Part shown: piece after piece, positions 1,656-8,909 of the stretch
Layout: every line of letters begins with the position of its first letter
Position numbering within the stretch: position 1 is the stretch's first letter
Assembly: GCA_017468215.1 (NCBI GenBank)
Contig: JAFUJG010000335.1
Span: forward strand, 1 to 10,320
Direction of reading: 5' to 3'
Length of the DNA: 10,320 nt
Source of the DNA: Clostridia bacterium
Lineage (GTDB): Bacteria > Bacillota > Clostridia > UMGS1883
The notes under the pieces: generated by a model
What the model saw: only the letters and a program-made list of their open reading frames with translations
Database searches by the model: none
What the model was told of the DNA's origin: nothing
Program-made: the position numbers and the translations under genes

Positions 1656-2615
1656 TTATCTTATGTTTCGTTTGGATTCGTACTTTTCGTATGCGGCTAT
1701 AATTTTCTGAACAAGGGGATGACGGACAATATCCGATGCTGAAAGATGGCAAATCTCCAATCCTTCGATGTCACGGAGAATTTTAACCGCTTCCTTAAGG
1801 CCGCTTCTTTTGCCGTCGGGAAGGTCTATCTGGGTAACGTCACCTGTGATTACACAGCGTGAGCCGAAGCCTATACGTGTTAAGAACATTTTCATCTGCT
1901 CGGGGGTAGTGTTTTGTGCTTCGTCCAATATGATAAACGCATCGTCAAGTGTTCTGCCTCGCATATAGGCAAGGGGTGCAACCTCAATAGAGCCACGTTC
2001 AACGTATTTCTGATAATTTTCAAAGCCAAGCATATCTGCAAGGGCATCGTAAAGAGGTCTTAAATAAGGGTCAACCTTCATTTGTAAATCGCCGGGCAAA
2101 AAGCCAAGCTTTTCACCTGCTTCAACTGCAGGGCGTGTAAGGATTATGCGTGAAACCTCCTTGCGGCGGAAAGCATCCACCGCCATGGCAACTGCCAAAT
2201 AGGTTTTACCTGTACCTGCAGGACCTATGGCTATAACAACGGTGTTGTTCTTTATTTTGTCAACATAAGCCTGCTGACCCTTGGTTTTGCATTTTACAGG
2301 TCTGCCCTTGCTGGAAATGCAGATTGTGTCCGCACTTTTTGCATAATCGGGGCTGAGCCCTGCCTGAGCCATGTCGATAGCGTAACGTACAGCCTGCTCA
2401 GTAACCTCCTCGCCGTTTGAATACAGAGCAAAAAGGTTGTCAAAAACACCGGCTGCCTTTTCGCAGTCAGCATCGTCGCCTACGATTTTAATGGTTTCAC
2501 CACGGTTGGTTATCTTTACGTTAAACGCCTTTTCAATGAGCTTTACGTTAAAGTCAAAGCTGCCGAAAACAGCTATCGTCATATCAATTGTCTGTGATTG
2601 AATTGTCTTCTCCAA
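1656..2615 (-). CDS. phoH: PhoH family P-loop ATPase (PhoH/YqfE)
   Basis: The protein is 319 aa from a TTG start, the usual length for PhoH. A small N-terminal domain (residues 1 to about 95) precedes the ATPase domain. Visible motifs are Walker A GPAGTGKT at 131-138, Walker B IILDEAQN at 228-235, TGDVTQIDLP at 257-266 and a C-terminal SDIVRHPLVQ at 294-303. PhoH is a cytoplasmic ATPase related to the helicase core, linked in the literature to RNA metabolism and phosphate stress; its exact role is unsettled. The TTG at 2615 is chosen because GGAGG sits 7 nt upstream and the resulting length fits the family. A longer GTG start at 2660 would add 15 unsupported residues. The start overlaps the 3' end of yqfD by 32 nt, implying translational coupling. 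pgpH follows after 13 nt. Confidence 0.95.
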   Translation of the reverse strand: MEKTIQSQTIDMTIAVFGSFDFNVKLIEKAFNVKITNRGETIKIVGDDADCEKAAGVFDNLFALYSNGEEVTEQAVRYAIDMAQAGLSPDYAKSADTICISSKGRPVKCKTKGQQAYVDKIKNNTVVIAIGPAGTGKTYLAVAMAVDAFRRKEVSRIILTRPAVEAGEKLGFLPGDLQMKVDPYLRPLYDALADMLGFENYQKYVERGSIEVAPLAYMRGRTLDDAFIILDEAQNTTPEQMKMFLTRIGFGSRCVITGDVTQIDLPDGKRSGLKEAVKILRDIEGLEICHLSASDIVRHPLVQKIIAAYEKYESKRNIR

Positions 2616-3770
2616 AATCCATCCTCCGCTCTGCGGCAATAGGCTCCTCACAAAGAGCACGCATCGTCAGTATAACGTTATCGCCGTCGTCTGTTGTAAA
2701 AGATTCGATGCAGGTTACACCGTACCCCATTTGTATGAGTGAATTATAAAATTCATCCTCACTCATTTTTACCTTTGAGGGTATGTCATTGTCTTGGTAG
2801 GTAACGCTTACCTCGTGATATTCGTGCTTGGTAAAAGTGATACCAAAGGGGACAATAACCCTATTATTTTCTATAATATCATAGTTTGGGTATAAAATGC
2901 TACTGTTTATGTAAAGTTTTAATCGAAAATTTTCAAAATTTACACTTAATTTTTCAGTTTTTTGCCCTGTTGGTGTGCGGATTTCAATTTTTTTGGGTAT
3001 GGTCACGGTTTTTTCTTCCCATACATTGCCGAAAACCTGACCTGAGGCGTGGATGTATTTTTTTTTTCCTCATCTGCTGCCATGCTGCCCTCAATAAGAA
3101 GCTGCCCCTTTAATACAGTATCTCCTTCTTTGACAACGGCAATTCCGTTGGTGGGGAATATTTTTGTAATGACCGCATCGTGGGTGGAGTAAATATTGTA
3201 AAAAGCATTTTCGTCATACACCTGCGGGGGGAGAGTGCGTTCAACATATTTTACAATTGCACTTGCACCTCGAATGTCTACCCAAAGCCACAAAAGGTCG
3301 GGATTTTGGATAAGCATGGTGTTTTTTATCTTTCCACGGTCTATGGTAAATTTAAAGGCACCACGTTTCACCCCCAGCTCCTTCAGCTCGCTAAGCAGCT
3401 GAGCTTCACGCTCCTTTGGTGCGTCTACTATATTTACGTGCCATATGATTTGCGAGGATAAAAACAGCAATAAAAAAATAACAGCAGGCGCAAAAACCAG
3501 AAGCAGGCGGTTGCGCTTTGATTTTAAAATGCTGTGCAGTCCTGTGGAGGATATTACCTCTACGGACAAATCCTCGGGAAGGTACTGTGAAAGCAGAAGC
3601 TCGGCTCCCTTGCAGCTGACGGAAATAACAAGCGTGTGCTCATCCACGGACGTGATATCACGGACAAATATGCCCTTCTGGCGTGCAATATTTACAACCC
3701 TTTCGCAAAAAGTGCCCTTTATCTGTATGCGGCATATGCCGAAAAGAAAATCAATAAGCCTGTGTCTCAT
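2584..3770 (-). CDS. yqfD: Sporulation protein YqfD, interrupted by an apparent frameshift
   Basis: Two minus-strand reading frames together make one YqfD. The first (3770 down to 3003) gives 255 aa with a membrane helix at about residues 88-110 (after KSKRNR) and an extracytoplasmic segment. The second ends at 2584. The split falls at ten A residues (minus strand, 3067-3058). With one more A (or one -1 slip) translation continues as KKYIHASGQVFGNVWEEKT and into TIPKKIEIRTPTG, giving about 395 aa, against about 398 for Bacillus YqfD. The stretch ASGQVFGNVW resembles the conserved YqfD segment before the C-terminal domain, so the downstream frame is genuinely coding upstream of its first start codon (GTG at 3006). 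The ATG at 3770 has AGGAG 7 nt upstream; that RBS overlaps the end of yqfC. YqfD is a sigma-E-dependent sporulation membrane protein in Bacillus. The break could be an assembly error, real inactivation, or slippage-dependent expression. Confidence 0.85.
2623..2627 (-). promoter_or_regulatory. Ribosome binding site of phoH (GGAGG), inside the end of yqfD
   Basis: On the minus strand GGAGG is followed by 7 nt and then the TTG at 2615. It is the only good Shine-Dalgarno near the phoH N-terminus and decides in favour of the TTG start over the upstream GTG at 2660. It lies within the last codons of yqfD. Confidence 0.75.
3058..3067 (-). repeat. A10 homopolymer at the yqfD frame break
   Basis: Ten consecutive T on the plus strand (A on the coding strand) follow GAGG. 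With ten A the reading frame runs EEKKNTS and stops at 3003. With eleven or eight A the YqfD frame is restored. Such runs are hot spots for replication slippage, transcriptional slippage, -1 ribosomal slippage and base-calling error. Confidence 0.9.
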
Positions 3771-3781
3771 GAAAACACTCC

Positions 3782-4060
3782 TCACTCAAAGCAGAGATTT
3801 TTAATTTTGCCCTTTACGCAGATGCTTTCGTTTGTCATAAACCCAAGGCTAAGCTCTGTGCCGTCAATGCGGAGAATTCCGTCGGTGGTGTTTAATCTGA
3901 CAGCGTTGGGTGAAAAGTCTAAAAGACCTTTAAAATTGTCAATTTCGGCTCTTGAGGTGCCGTAGAGGGTTATATTCGGAAGGTCGCCAAGTGTACCGCA
4001 GGCTATATCAAATGCGTTTTCTGCCTTTGATATAAGGCGGGAAGCAGCTTTTTTTGCCAT
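3782..4060 (-). CDS. yqfC: Sporulation protein YqfC
   Basis: This 92-aa protein has the compact beta-rich composition and length of YqfC. The central segment (about residues 41-60, NFKGLLDFSPNAVRLNTTDG) and the C-terminal GKIKNLCFE are typical of the family. YqfC is found only in spore formers, always next to yqfD, and is sigma-E-controlled in Bacillus; its molecular role is not established. The ATG at 4060 is preceded by AAAGGA about 9-10 nt upstream. Its TGA (3784-3782) overlaps the ribosome binding site of yqfD, so the two are coupled. It is the first gene of the minus-strand operon. I could not identify a convincing sigma-A or sigma-E promoter in the 156 nt upstream. Confidence 0.9.
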   Translation of the reverse strand: MAKKAASRLISKAENAFDIACGTLGDLPNITLYGTSRAEIDNFKGLLDFSPNAVRLNTTDGILRIDGTELSLGFMTNESICVKGKIKNLCFE

Positions 4061-5488: not shown

Positions 5489-5517
5489 ATTATATTCATA
5501 AATTAAGATATTGTCAA
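5489..5517 (-). promoter_or_regulatory. Perfect sigma-A consensus promoter for the DUF1858 gene
   Basis: On the minus strand TTGACA (5517-5512), exactly 17 nt, then TATAAT (5494-5489): an exact match in both hexamers with optimal spacing. The expected start is near 5482, giving a leader of about 26 nt that contains GGAGG. The -35 overlaps the TGA of the upstream HAD gene (5516-5514). Confidence 0.9.
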
Positions 5518-6557
5518 CATGATTCTATCATGCCCTTTATTGAGGGCAAAATATACTCAGCCTTTTCCTTTTCAAAGTAGCCTCTTGCACTTTCACCTGA
5601 AATACCTGTAAGAACTGCTAAAAAGTCGCAGCCCATACGCTTTGCGGCGAAAAGGTCGCTGCCTGCATCACCAACTATAAGCGCCTTTGAGATAAGGCTT
5701 TTGTGGTACTCGCCTGCGATAATTTTTTCATCGGGATAGCTTGTGCGGTAAAGTGCTTTAAGGAAGATGTAGGGCTCGGGCTTGGTAAGAATAACCTTTT
5801 TACCCATTTTGAGAAAATGCTGCTCTGCCTGTGTGATATGAGTGTAGGTTGCAACAGCGTCAGGTTCGAAAAACTTGCCTATATCCCACAAACGGACAGG
5901 GTTTGAAACATCACGGTCACTTCTTCCTGTGGCAACCATGAGCTTTTTGCCGCTTTCCTTAAGGGTTGACAAAACAGTTAAAACATCATCAAGTGCTATT
6001 GCGGGAATTTCACGCATCTCCATAGATTCCTTACCCTGACAGCGGGGCTTCACATTGTAGAAAACCTCGAACTCGTCACTGCCGAAGTACCATTCCTGGA
6101 ATGTGTCACGGCACATGTTCCATACAGGCTCGTTACGGCTGCATACCTCAACGGGTAAACCAAGCTTTTCGCTGAGAAGCTGTGCACATTCTGTGTATAG
6201 GTCAAAGGCTAAAAGCGATGTTTGTGATATGTAGTCGTAAACCTCTTTATAGGACTTGCATTTGCCCGAAAGCATGTATGCAAAGACAATGTAGCCTAAA
6301 TCCCAGTTGGAGTTTACGCCTCGCTCTTTAACAAGGGTGATGGTCTTGTCACCAAAAAACACCTCGTTGCGTATTTCTTTTACACGGCTGAGTGCATCGG
6401 AGGGGTCAAAGGGTGTTATGCCGTAGTAATGGTTGGCATTTAAAAGCTCATAAACCGTCAGTGCGGCAATGTCCCAATAGTTTTCCTCGCTTGTGATAAC
6501 GCCGTCCATGTCAAAGATAATGTATTCGTATTTGTCAAGAAACTTTGCACACTTCAT
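5514..6557 (-). CDS. HAD-superfamily phosphatase in a his-like cluster
   Basis: A 347-aa cytoplasmic HAD hydrolase. Motif I is FDMDGV (nucleophile Asp16, acid/base Asp18), motif II is VATGRS (Thr210), motif III the Lys in LTKPEP (Lys259), and motif IV VGDAGSD (Asp297, Asp301). All catalytic positions are present. A cap of roughly 170-180 residues sits between motifs I and II, longer than in standard C1-capped phosphatases; it includes NYWDIAALTVYELLN and a Trp/Cys-containing stretch near 146-157. Its ATG overlaps the hisB-like stop (TGATG), so it is translationally coupled as the last gene of the unit. By position it could provide a phosphatase step analogous to histidinol-phosphatase, but the sequence does not look like HisB-N or HisN, and the substrate is unknown. 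It could also be a general phosphoglycolate-type phosphatase. Confidence 0.85.
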   Translation of the reverse strand: MKCAKFLDKYEYIIFDMDGVITSEENYWDIAALTVYELLNANHYYGITPFDPSDALSRVKEIRNEVFFGDKTITLVKERGVNSNWDLGYIVFAYMLSGKCKSYKEVYDYISQTSLLAFDLYTECAQLLSEKLGLPVEVCSRNEPVWNMCRDTFQEWYFGSDEFEVFYNVKPRCQGKESMEMREIPAIALDDVLTVLSTLKESGKKLMVATGRSDRDVSNPVRLWDIGKFFEPDAVATYTHITQAEQHFLKMGKKVILTKPEPYIFLKALYRTSYPDEKIIAGEYHKSLISKALIVGDAGSDLFAAKRMGCDFLAVLTGISGESARGYFEKEKAEYILPSIKGMIESC

Positions 6558-7171
6558 CAGATTTCCTCTACCTCGAAGGTTACCTTGCCTGCAACACCGC
6601 TTGTCATACCCTTGCGGGCTTCGTCAACAGAAAAGGCATTTTTAAGTGCTGTGCCGAAGGAACGGAAAACAGCCTCCCATACATGGTGAGTGTTTTCGCC
6701 TCTTTCAAGGTCAATCTGAACAGTACAGCATGCTCCCTGGCAGAAAGCGTCAAGGAACACAAGAAGCTCCTCACTTGCCATGCCTTCAACGTGCTCAGAA
6801 ACCTTTACCTTGGGATAAAAGCCGAAAAAGGCTCTCTGCTCAAAGCTGATTGTTGTGTGAGCCAAGGCTTCGTCTATCATGCCGAAACCGTCGCCGAAGC
6901 CCATAACACCATCTGTTGTTTCAAGCTTTTTTGCAAAGGCTTTACCAAGCGCCTGGCCAAGGTCCTCTGTTACAAGATGTGCAAGACAAAAGTCTGTAAG
7001 GTTAACCTGGGCTTCAATGTTGAAATTCGACCTCCATACAGTCTGCTCAATCATGTGATTCAAAAAGGGGAGAGGTGTTCTGATGCGGCTTCTGTAGTCC
7101 TTTTTAACAGGACCGTCAGAAAGGATTACCTGCATTGTACTTTCTGTTGTTTTACGTGTAACTTTAATCAT
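6557..7171 (-). CDS. HisB-like (imidazoleglycerol-phosphate dehydratase fold) protein with degenerate active site
   Basis: A 204-aa protein with the two-repeat IGPD fold: ET near 10, PFLNHM (35-40), TEDLGQALG (68-76), MIDEAL (98-103) and ENTHHVWEAVF (159-169). Length fits monofunctional HisB. Several positions conserved in the true enzyme differ. FLDHM has Asn38 for Asp; the His of RHG appears as Arg47; the first HHxxED is HLVTED (65-70) with Leu66; the His of the LH pair before the second motif is Gln152; the Lys of FKA is Arg170; and the C-terminal STKG is absent (MTSGVAGK). The second HHxxE (162-166) is intact. It therefore probably binds metal poorly or differently, and may not dehydrate IGP. 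The ATG at 7171 has AGGTGA 6 nt upstream. It lies 43 nt after hisD-like, and its TGA overlaps the HAD ATG. Family membership is firm; function is open. Confidence 0.82.
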   Translation of the reverse strand: MIKVTRKTTESTMQVILSDGPVKKDYRSRIRTPLPFLNHMIEQTVWRSNFNIEAQVNLTDFCLAHLVTEDLGQALGKAFAKKLETTDGVMGFGDGFGMIDEALAHTTISFEQRAFFGFYPKVKVSEHVEGMASEELLVFLDAFCQGACCTVQIDLERGENTHHVWEAVFRSFGTALKNAFSVDEARKGMTSGVAGKVTFEVEEI

Positions 7172-7214
7172 TATAAATCACCTGTATTTCATAAGGTTTT
7201 ACGCCCGACAGTAA

Positions 7215-8507
7215 TTACTTTCTTTCTTTTACTGCCAAGCCGTGTGTATCAAAGCCTTCAACTGTTGCCATCTTATACGCAAAATCACGAACTCTTTCAA
7301 AGCCTTCACGTGATGCATAGCCGATGGAGGAACGCTTCAAAAAGTCAAATACCGAAACAGAGGAATATGTTTTTGCAAAGCCGCCTGTGGGCAGGATTGC
7401 GTTGGGTCCTAAAAGGAAATTGCAAAGTGTTACGGGTGTGTAGTCGCCTAAGAGGATTTCACCTGCGTTCTTAATGCCCTCAAGCACATCAAAGGGCTTT
7501 TCACACATAACCTCCATATGCTCGGGAGCGTAGTCGTTAACGAACTGAACGCTTTCGGCCAGTGAGTTTGTAAGGATAACACCACCGTAGCCGTTTTCAA
7601 CAGCTTCAATGAAGGACTTTCTTCTTTCGGAAATCTTTTCCTTCTGGCACTGTATAATAGGAAGCACCTTTTCTACAAGTTCTTCTGAGTGTGTTACCAA
7701 AAGTGCGGAGGAGTCGGGGCCGTGTTCAGCCTCAATCATCCAGTCAAGAGCAACCTTTTCGGGGTCTGCCTTTTCGTCAGCAAGGATAATAACCTCACTT
7801 GGACCTGCAGGAAGGCCTGCGTCAATCTGCTGAGCAAGAACTCTCTTTGCTGCTGTAGCGTAGCTGTTGCCGGGGCCGATAATCTTATGGCACTTGGGAA
7901 CAGTTTCAGTACCGTATGCCACAGCTGCAACTGCCTGGATGCCGCCCATTTTATAAATTTCGGTAATGCCGATAATTTTTGCTGCTGTTAAAATTGCATC
8001 GTCAACCTCGCCCTTTTGGTTAGGCGGTGTTACAACAACAATCTTTTCAACACCTGCTACCTTAGCCGGTACGCCGAGCATTAAAAGCACAGAGGGAAAG
8101 CTGCCCTTGCCGCCGGGAACATAAAGACAAACGTCAACAATGGGAGTTGTCTTTTCACCTACCATAAGCCCCTTGTCCACATTGGTAAACCACATTTCCT
8201 CGGGGAGCTGCTTTTCGTGGAAGTCGTATATATTCTTATATGCGTATTCGATAGCTTCACGTGTTTCACGGTCAAGACGTGCATAGGCTGTTTCAATTTC
8301 CTCGGGTGTAACCTTTATTTTATCAGCAGAAAGCTTAACACGGTCAAACTTTTCTGTATATTTGAGCACTGCCGCATCGCCATTGTCACGGACATCGTCG
8401 GAAACCTCTTTTGCCAGCTTCATCTGCTCTGTAATATCGGTTTCGGCTCTTTTCATTATACGTGTTTTCTGCTCGCAAGTCATTTCTGAAAGCTTATAAA
8501 TATTCAT
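7215..8507 (-). CDS. Histidinol-dehydrogenase-family protein (HisD-like), variant metal site
   Basis: A 430-aa protein of normal HisD length. Conserved blocks are YVPGGKGSFPS (129-139), MGGIQAVAA (187-195), GPGNSYATAAKR (211-222), AGPSEVIILAD (234-244), AEHGPDSSALL (260-270), APEHMEV (327-333) and a C-terminal THGLAVKER. Compared with E. coli HisD, the catalytic Glu/His pair (Glu329-His330) and two zinc ligands (His262, His422) remain. The ligand Gln259 is Glu259, the ligand Asp360 is Asn363 (CNF in place of GDY), and His367 is Ala370 (GPNA in place of GxNH). This pattern is that of a paralogous HisD-like subfamily rather than classical HisD, so an NAD-dependent alcohol dehydrogenase on another substrate is plausible. 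The ATG at 8507 has GGAGG 9 nt upstream; an in-frame start 11 codons earlier has no site. It is the first gene of the unit and has its own promoter. Confidence 0.85.
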   Translation of the reverse strand: MNIYKLSEMTCEQKTRIMKRAETDITEQMKLAKEVSDDVRDNGDAAVLKYTEKFDRVKLSADKIKVTPEEIETAYARLDRETREAIEYAYKNIYDFHEKQLPEEMWFTNVDKGLMVGEKTTPIVDVCLYVPGGKGSFPSVLLMLGVPAKVAGVEKIVVVTPPNQKGEVDDAILTAAKIIGITEIYKMGGIQAVAAVAYGTETVPKCHKIIGPGNSYATAAKRVLAQQIDAGLPAGPSEVIILADEKADPEKVALDWMIEAEHGPDSSALLVTHSEELVEKVLPIIQCQKEKISERRKSFIEAVENGYGGVILTNSLAESVQFVNDYAPEHMEVMCEKPFDVLEGIKNAGEILLGDYTPVTLCNFLLGPNAILPTGGFAKTYSSVSVFDFLKRSSIGYASREGFERVRDFAYKMATVEGFDTHGLAVKERK

Positions 8508-8542
8508 ACCTGTAATCCTCCCGGATAAATTTGTTAGCATCT

Positions 8543-8706: not shown

Positions 8707-8909
8707 CAGAATTATGTAAACCTGGATTTGGTGGGTTTTACTGGGTTTGGAAAATTTAAAACCTTCCACAAAAAAACACTGCTTTTCATGTGGAAGTTGT
8801 GGAAAAGTTTGTTCAAAACCGTAAAATAAGCTTTTGCGACCTGTGGAAATCTCCAGTTTTCCACATGGTGCATTCTGTGGAAAACTTATTTTAGGTTTAC
8901 ATAATTCTG
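8707..8909. repeat. 203-bp element bounded by a perfect 17-bp inverted repeat
   Basis: The left arm CAGAATTATGTAAACCT (8707-8723) is the exact reverse complement of 8893-8909. The 169 bp between contain nested inverted repeats: TAAAATAAGcTTTT (8822-8835) against AAAACTTATTTTA (8881-8893) with one bulged base; TGTGGAAA against TTTCCACA (8842-8849 and 8858-8865); and CTTCCACA against TGTGGAAG (8763-8770 and 8789-8796). AAAA abuts both outer ends, as a target duplication might, though the area is A-rich. It carries no gene and lies between two divergent promoters. It may be a MITE-like remnant or a regulatory or architectural element. Confidence 0.75.
8764..8884. promoter_or_regulatory. Cluster of six TTCCACA/TGTGGAA motifs, possible protein-binding array
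   Basis: Occurrences are at 8764-8770 (TTCCACA), 8789-8795, 8798-8804, 8842-8848 (all TGTGGAA), 8859-8865 (TTCCACA) and 8876-8882 (TGTGGAA). Three extend to TTTTCCACA or its complement (8798-8806, 8857-8865, 8876-8884), one base from the DnaA box TTATCCACA. Orientation is mixed and two copies are spaced 9 bp apart. Identity of the binding protein is unknown. Confidence 0.55.

Follow-up and report, generated by a model that had tools for sequence, protein, structure and literature searches.

Which pathway is served by three adjacent genes that resemble the closing genes of histidine synthesis and have altered active sites? We asked this of a stretch of 10,320 nucleotides from a Clostridia bacterium (assembly GCA_017468215.1, contig JAFUJG010000335.1; hereafter the window), which is contig C322 of a 368-contig bin that is 73% complete. 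The original prediction had described here three coupled genes, HisD-like, HisB-like and encoding a HAD phosphatase, with metal positions altered in both His-family proteins, and both parts of this description were borne out. The open reading frame (ORF) list places the genes, co-directional and on the minus strand, at the positions first noted; their products match the corresponding families (PF00815, E-value (E) 6.7e-151; PF00475, E 2.5e-31; HAD_2, E 1.4e-09), and the altered codons, mapped individually, recur across the aligned proteins of the same altered types, which we denote HisD' and HisB'. The genes hisB' and HAD overlap by 1 base, hisD' and hisB' are separated by 43 bp, and the best start of hisD' is an ATG at 8507 that follows a GGGAGG site, the longest ORF beginning at 8540. 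The features are listed below, with HisD residues numbered as in E. coli and HisB residues as in Arabidopsis IGPD2 (IGPD, imidazoleglycerol-phosphate dehydratase).

7215..8507, minus strand: hisD', a histidinol-dehydrogenase-family gene of 430 aa, with E259, H262, N360 and H419 at the zinc-site positions, A367, and the bases E326 and H327 retained
6557..7171, minus strand: hisB', an IGPD-fold gene of 204 aa, with a single ligand gone from each metal site (H74, H145) and the phosphate-site changes H55R, R99G and K177R
5514..6557, minus strand: HAD phosphatase gene of 347 aa, with D16, T210, K259 and D297
7398..7421, minus strand: segment of hisD' with the codons of D360N and H367A, placed by codon mapping and fixed in 85 of 85 aligned rows
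6974..6979, minus strand: codons of the first metal motif of hisB', H73 retained and H74 replaced by Leu, at a position that is hydrophobic in all HisB' rows
6899..6901, minus strand: hisB' codon of the phosphate-binding R99, replaced by Gly

From comparison of these sequences, the trio very probably replaces the late steps of histidine synthesis, namely those of HisB, HisC, histidinol phosphatase and HisD. What supports this reading was observed directly: the three genes occur as a trio with fixed active-site signatures, HisB' and canonical HisB exclude each other, HisB' is coupled to HisD', the same genomes carry the front half of the pathway, and a HisC-family match over the cut-off is usually missing.

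We identified exactly one PF00475 match in 54 of 60 related genomes, that of the window included; 35 were canonical (E 1.3e-57 or lower) and 19 were HisB' (E 2.5e-34 to 8.4e-28), the types being told apart by E, and no genome held both. Across the class, a HisB-family gene was found in 296 of 393 genomes, 239 of them canonical (E 4.3e-56 or lower) and 57 HisB' (E 9.7e-40 to 1.4e-27), again with none holding both. Only two class genomes had two HisB matches, both canonical in G271 and both HisB' in G388. The two genes of G388 (L165 and L177) lie on separate contigs and both carry the altered signature, reflecting either duplication or contamination (estimate 5). HisD' accompanied HisB' wherever it was read; at two HisB' loci, L157 and L167, no HisD match was found within their 3.4 kb. 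In phylogenetic trees, HisB' (126 of 126) was separated from canonical HisB (33 of 33), and HisD' (85) from canonical HisD (13), with support after midpoint rooting of 1.0 for the canonical side and of 0.58 and 0.79 for the altered side. Both types occur within the family of the window's own genome (genus g5 canonical, genera g1 to g4 HisB'), indicating that exchange of the set has taken place inside a single family. The altered set occurs across genomes of the class Clostridia and in some Bacilli, and isolates with trio-type genes include Petroclostridium sp. X23, Ructibacterium gallinarum, Sulfoacidibacillus thermotolerans, Thermicanus aegyptius and Ferroacidibacillus organovorans. The single-contig genome of Petroclostridium sp. 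X23 (G146/L077; contamination estimate 11) likewise has a single HisB match, of the HisB' type.

In IGPD (HisB, EC 4.2.1.19; PF00475), the imidazole lies between two Mn ions, and the phosphate is bound by R99 and K177 with either Q51/H55 or R121/S199/K201 (PMC4509728, in the portion available; residue roles were drawn from this and from the available portions of PMC10978614 and PMC5585171). We aligned 30 canonical proteins (the 30 loci returned from 35 canonical relatives), the 19 HisB' relatives with the window among them, and 120 proteins, those listed among 743 matches; further HisB' rows came from 80 named-genome loci, 27 other loci and the 118 rows listed in a search with the Sulfoacidibacillus protein, these sets partly overlapping. 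HisB' shares with IGPD its fold, its length, the acid-base residue Glu21 (E at every aligned HisB' row) and six of eight metal-ligand positions, keeping E21, H47, H73, E77, D108, R121, H169, H170 and E173 wherever the residue aligned. In contrast, neither of the two Mn sites (H47, H74, H169, E173 and H73, E77, H145, H170) is complete, each having lost one ligand: H74 is replaced by V, L or I, and position 145, which among the 30 canonical rows is E in 29 and D in the remaining one, is V, T or A (A, T or S among the 118 listed rows). In the phosphate site only R121 is retained. H55 is replaced by R (K in 2 of 120), R99 by G (S in 1 of 19 and in 2 of 80, C in 1 of 120, and A in 5 of the 118 listed rows) and K177 by R (S in 1 of 120), while the C-loop, PSTKG in the single canonical loop used for comparison, reads T(S/A)GV(A/C)G in 19 of 19. 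Codon mapping gives H55R, H74L, R99G, H145V and K177R in the window protein, for which the AlphaFold model (predicted local distance difference test score, pLDDT, 94.3) returned only IGPD structures (29 of 29 Foldseek matches at E <= 0.001), and which scores under every NCBIfam HisB cut-off. As HisB' has lost R99, K177, H55 and the C-loop and has kept E21 and the remaining ligands, it fits a substrate without a phosphate; a hydroxy-acid substrate could fill the freed metal positions.

HisD' resembles HisD (EC 1.1.1.23; PF00815, TIGR00069) over its whole length, and the zinc histidines H262 and H419, the imidazole contact E414 and the Glu/His base pair E326 and H327 are untouched (E326, H327 and E414 in 85 of 85 rows). 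The changes are on the substrate side, with Q259E, D360N, H367A and A136G in all 85 rows, V or I at E356 in 85, and C at G359 in 84, whereas 12 canonical HisD proteins and E. coli HisD have none of them. Two members of the zinc-ligand set (Q259, H262, D360, H419) are thus altered throughout. The window protein carries Q259E, E356V, D360N and H367A by codon mapping, and in an additional set, which included one partial sequence, the same pattern was found in 25 of 25 HisD' proteins and the old pattern in 4 canonical controls (T at 356 in one). A136G and H367A could accommodate an extra C3 hydroxyl. Despite its two changed zinc-ligand positions, HisD' passes the NCBIfam HisD equivalog cut-off (TIGR00069, 474.3 versus 243.8 bits), so automatic annotation will name it histidinol dehydrogenase. 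Another enzyme of the HisD fold and superfamily, the 2,3-dihydroxypropane-1-sulfonate (DHPS)/sulfopropanediol 3-dehydrogenase HpsN, performs a four-electron oxidation of the diol DHPS to a hydroxy acid, according to the available portion of PMC11382572, and this is the reaction type proposed here for HisD'. HisD' is not itself HpsN, as judged by score and motif: it is closer to HisD (280.9 bits) than to HpsN-type chains (200.8 and 179.8 bits), and the HpsN motif G-R-Y-A/S-H (His126; same source and portion) reads G-K-G-S-F in the window protein, the one sequence read.

In the third protein, D16, K259 and D297 do not vary across 20 aligned rows and T210 hardly does; we take these residues to represent the four HAD motifs. 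The closest solved relative of this protein is 1QYI, a Staphylococcus aureus HAD protein labelled as hypothetical and of undefined role (sequence E 3e-41; fold E 1.4e-22 with a model of pLDDT 94.7), followed, among the best 50 of 162 fold matches at E <= 0.001, by HAD-fold enzymes and designs. The gene order of the trio is conserved both in relatives, where hisD' and hisB' occur together in 18 of 18 with the HAD gene next in 15, and at named loci (the best 80 of at least 524 confirmed). At the latter, hisD' lies within 300 bp in 71 of the 76 loci with room, and the HAD gene within 400 bp in 68 of 78, being farther off in 3 of the other 10. Of 72 loci with room, 48 (e.g. L074:11708-12259) carry after the trio a gene resembling the beta subunit of Fe-S hydro-lyases (PF05683, NF005310). 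As an alternative dehydratase this protein was rejected, being absent beside the window trio, and with no alpha subunit recognised in 13 neighbourhoods, the genomes not having been searched for one.

We found the front half of the pathway elsewhere in the window's own genome, with hisZ-hisG-hisH-hisF on contig C54 and hisA-hisIE on C151; HisZ, HisH, HisF, HisA and HisIE exceed curated cut-offs, and HisG matches at E 2.5e-54. Profile scans of the window ORFs recognised no his genes beyond hisD' and hisB', and no HisB or HisD other than the altered pair was found in this 73% complete genome. Among the HisB' relatives, HisA/F-family matches (E <= 7.8e-80) are present in 19 of 19 and HisG in 16, the remaining three (G001, G012 and G016) being 59, 91 and 86% complete. 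HisC, called where a TIGR01141 match exceeded the family cut-off (class genomes being judged each by best E), was identified in 33 of 35 canonical relatives, in none of the 19 with HisB' and in none of the 6 without HisB. Across the class it was called in 242 genomes, 223 of 239 canonical, 7 of 57 HisB' and 12 of 97 without HisB, an association with HisB type of Fisher p 9e-35 when the relatedness of genomes is ignored; of the 16 canonical genomes under the cut-off, 14 still match at E 1e-65 or better, and G031 and G126 do not.

The window's own genome, as far as it is complete, has no HisC over the cut-off, and its best match (L196; 144.6 versus 276.55 bits) scores best as another aminotransferase. 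Matches in genus g4 reach 174-200 bits, and the three fetched (L193, L195 and L197) cluster together, with L195 scoring best for CobD and falling below that cut-off as well (265.8 of 290.55 bits). Class I/II aminotransferases were found in HisB' genomes. Where canonical clusters were read, HisC was flanked by hisD and hisB in 11 of 12. Compared with the canonical pathway (HisZG-IE-A-FH-B-C-N-D), trio genomes thus have in common the front half and the presumed end product, whereas the late enzymes are replaced as a set and HisC is usually not found. Genomes with the altered pair usually lack a recognised HisC, which indicates that the route to histidine has probably changed. In the available portion of PMC9026213, the histidine gene set has HisC and HisN in brackets.

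How might such a route run? The order HAD, HisD', HisB' and transaminase is one that we hold at even confidence, inferring the order, each activity and the transaminase itself. HisZG, HisIE, HisA and HisFH would make imidazoleglycerol phosphate (IGP), which the HAD enzyme would dephosphorylate to imidazoleglycerol. HisD' would then carry out two successive NAD-linked oxidations of the primary alcohol, giving imidazoleglycerate, by analogy with HpsN acting on DHPS. HisB' would take off the ring-adjacent hydroxyl by IGPD-like chemistry, yielding imidazolepyruvate, and its substrate would bear a carboxylate rather than a phosphate at C1, matching the loss of most of the phosphate site. General transaminases act on imidazolepyruvate, and one of these, or an aromatic transaminase, would complete histidine. 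We therefore put forward, tentatively and at slightly less than even confidence, a second naturally occurring way of completing histidine: it would pass through imidazoleglycerol, imidazoleglycerate and imidazolepyruvate, with the HisD and HisB chemistries in reversed order and without histidinol phosphate or HisC. Such a route would have gone unnoticed because its genes pass as ordinary hisB and hisD.

A number of observations weigh against this route. The genomes counted are related and thus non-independent samples, and 18 of the 57 class HisB' genomes were typed by E-value alone, residues having been checked in 39. No HAD gene was found at 7 of the 78 named loci with room, and one locus (L127, Candidatus Carbobacillus) has HisD' and HisB', no adjacent HAD gene and a HisC-like match over the cut-off, making it a possible intermediate or exception. 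HisC-family matches over the cut-off are present in 7 of the 57 class HisB' genomes (families f23 and f66; 1062-1068 bp) and in 6 of 12 genomes reached through named loci. Judged by topology alone, the seven (L178-L184) cluster with HisC proteins that are second copies in canonical genomes (L185-L190), apart from the two operon-HisC groups; L203 (Carbobacillus) branches just outside the second-copy cluster, and L210 (Dethiobacter) is placed close to one of the operon groups. Those of f23 lie beside what are presumably aro genes, and those of f66 beside genes that we take to be miaB- and mutS-like. A HisC in aro context can serve histidine too, as in B. subtilis, and these proteins may have a HisC role in the exception genomes. 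Roseburia has HisC outside its his operon (PMC7478625, in the portion available), so gene position alone is no test. As regards the enzymes, R121 and the new arginines 55 and 177 of HisB' could still bind phosphate, and the Q259E/D360N pair of HisD' might be a neutral ligand swap. Finally, neither a T-box nor a HisR site links the trio to histidine control. No T-box was found at the trio in the window (Rfam; one sub-threshold match, E 0.48) or in 18 loci at the gathering threshold, a single one lying in L077 about 10 kb downstream of the trio; and in 90 upstream regions scanned with the published Firmicutes HisR consensus (PMC9413887, in the portion available), the exact core occurred in 5 versus 3.1 shuffled, and scores of at least 11 in 5 versus 2.2, which is about the shuffled expectation; as independent proof, regulation thus speaks neither for nor against the reading. 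The non-coding region upstream of hisD' in the window holds an inverted repeat, GTGGAAAACTGGAGATTTCCAC, at 8843-8864, amid several TTTCCACA-like words.

Two other explanations also keep histidine as the product. Under isofunctional drift, the reactions and substrates would be canonical, the HAD protein would be histidinol phosphatase, and an unrecognised aminotransferase would perform the HisC step. Ligand swaps can be neutral, class I/II aminotransferases occur in HisB' genomes, with an aro-context HisC-like gene in some, and HisC or HisN calls are diverged or missing in known prototrophs (available portion of PMC7311316). Drift would not, however, be expected to yield two sharply separate states without any genome that combines the two types, and many substrate-side changes are fixed in two enzymes together, with HisC usually lost alongside; we regard it as unlikely. 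Alternatively, the same module could act in another order, with HisB' converting IGP to imidazoleacetol phosphate, the HAD enzyme dephosphorylating this, HisD' oxidising imidazoleacetol to imidazolepyruvate, and a general transaminase forming histidine. That order would likewise be free of HisC and would account for a changed HisD' substrate, and the three HisB' arginines could hold the phosphate; it is quite unlikely, given that HisB' has lost R99 and the C-loop that binds phosphate, and that its metal sites have both changed although its substrate would be canonical.

The original prediction had tentatively assigned the trio to another pathway and product, in line with its altered active sites and its distance from the other his genes in its own genome. 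We find this improbable, since the front half is kept, HisB' and HisD' are the only HisB and HisD found, and IGP would be a dead end; moreover, in genomes without HisB and HisD, such as G032, G050 and G057, HisG is absent too and the HisA/F-family matches are no more than weak. The remark that no hisG, hisH, hisA, hisF or hisI is adjacent holds for the window, although all are present elsewhere in the genome. As grounds for giving up a different product, that prediction had named grouping with canonical HisB and HisD, or being the sole HisB and HisD of a histidine prototroph: the proteins are separate from the canonical ones in trees, and are the sole pair found in a 73% complete genome with the front half. 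The second, canonical set for which it had proposed a search was not found in this genome, nor did any searched genome have both HisB' and canonical HisB. Its inference of coordinated change rather than decay is upheld, as the signatures of both enzymes are fixed across the lineage, and the triplet, whose recurrence it had proposed to check, does recur. An assembly artefact or decay, with the trio a relic and canonical hisB, hisC and hisD located in sequence that the bin lacks, might be suspected from a 73% complete, 368-contig bin. It is very improbable indeed: the reading frames are open, the pattern is repeated in bins 96-99% complete (G004, G006, G042, G047, G053 and G055), and the single-contig Petroclostridium genome (contamination estimate 11) has only one HisB match.

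Elsewhere in the window, the neighbouring genes include yqfC-, yqfD- and ylbJ-like sporulation genes. The yqfD-like gene (2584-3785) is apparently split, with an ORF at 3003-3785 that covers profile positions 2-232 of 379 and a continuation ORF at 2584-3006 in a different frame.

Histidine is generally regarded as being made by a single route. We found no description of a route such as that proposed here in searches of the open-licence PMC literature, a body that excludes subscription papers and most preprints, nor in the available portions of PMC9413887, PMC9026213, PMC7311316, PMC5445326, PMC7478625 and PMC3896937. The trio suggests what the HAD subfamily of 1QYI might do, hinting at its type of substrate. 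If the HisC-less route is correct, replacement of the late half would give histidine synthesis a rare alternative, and two enzymes of one pathway would be seen to have shifted substrate together. In many Firmicutes from the gut and the environment, a missing HisC call would turn into a prediction of prototrophy, and inhibitors of IGPD and HisD may miss the bacteria that bear the trio.

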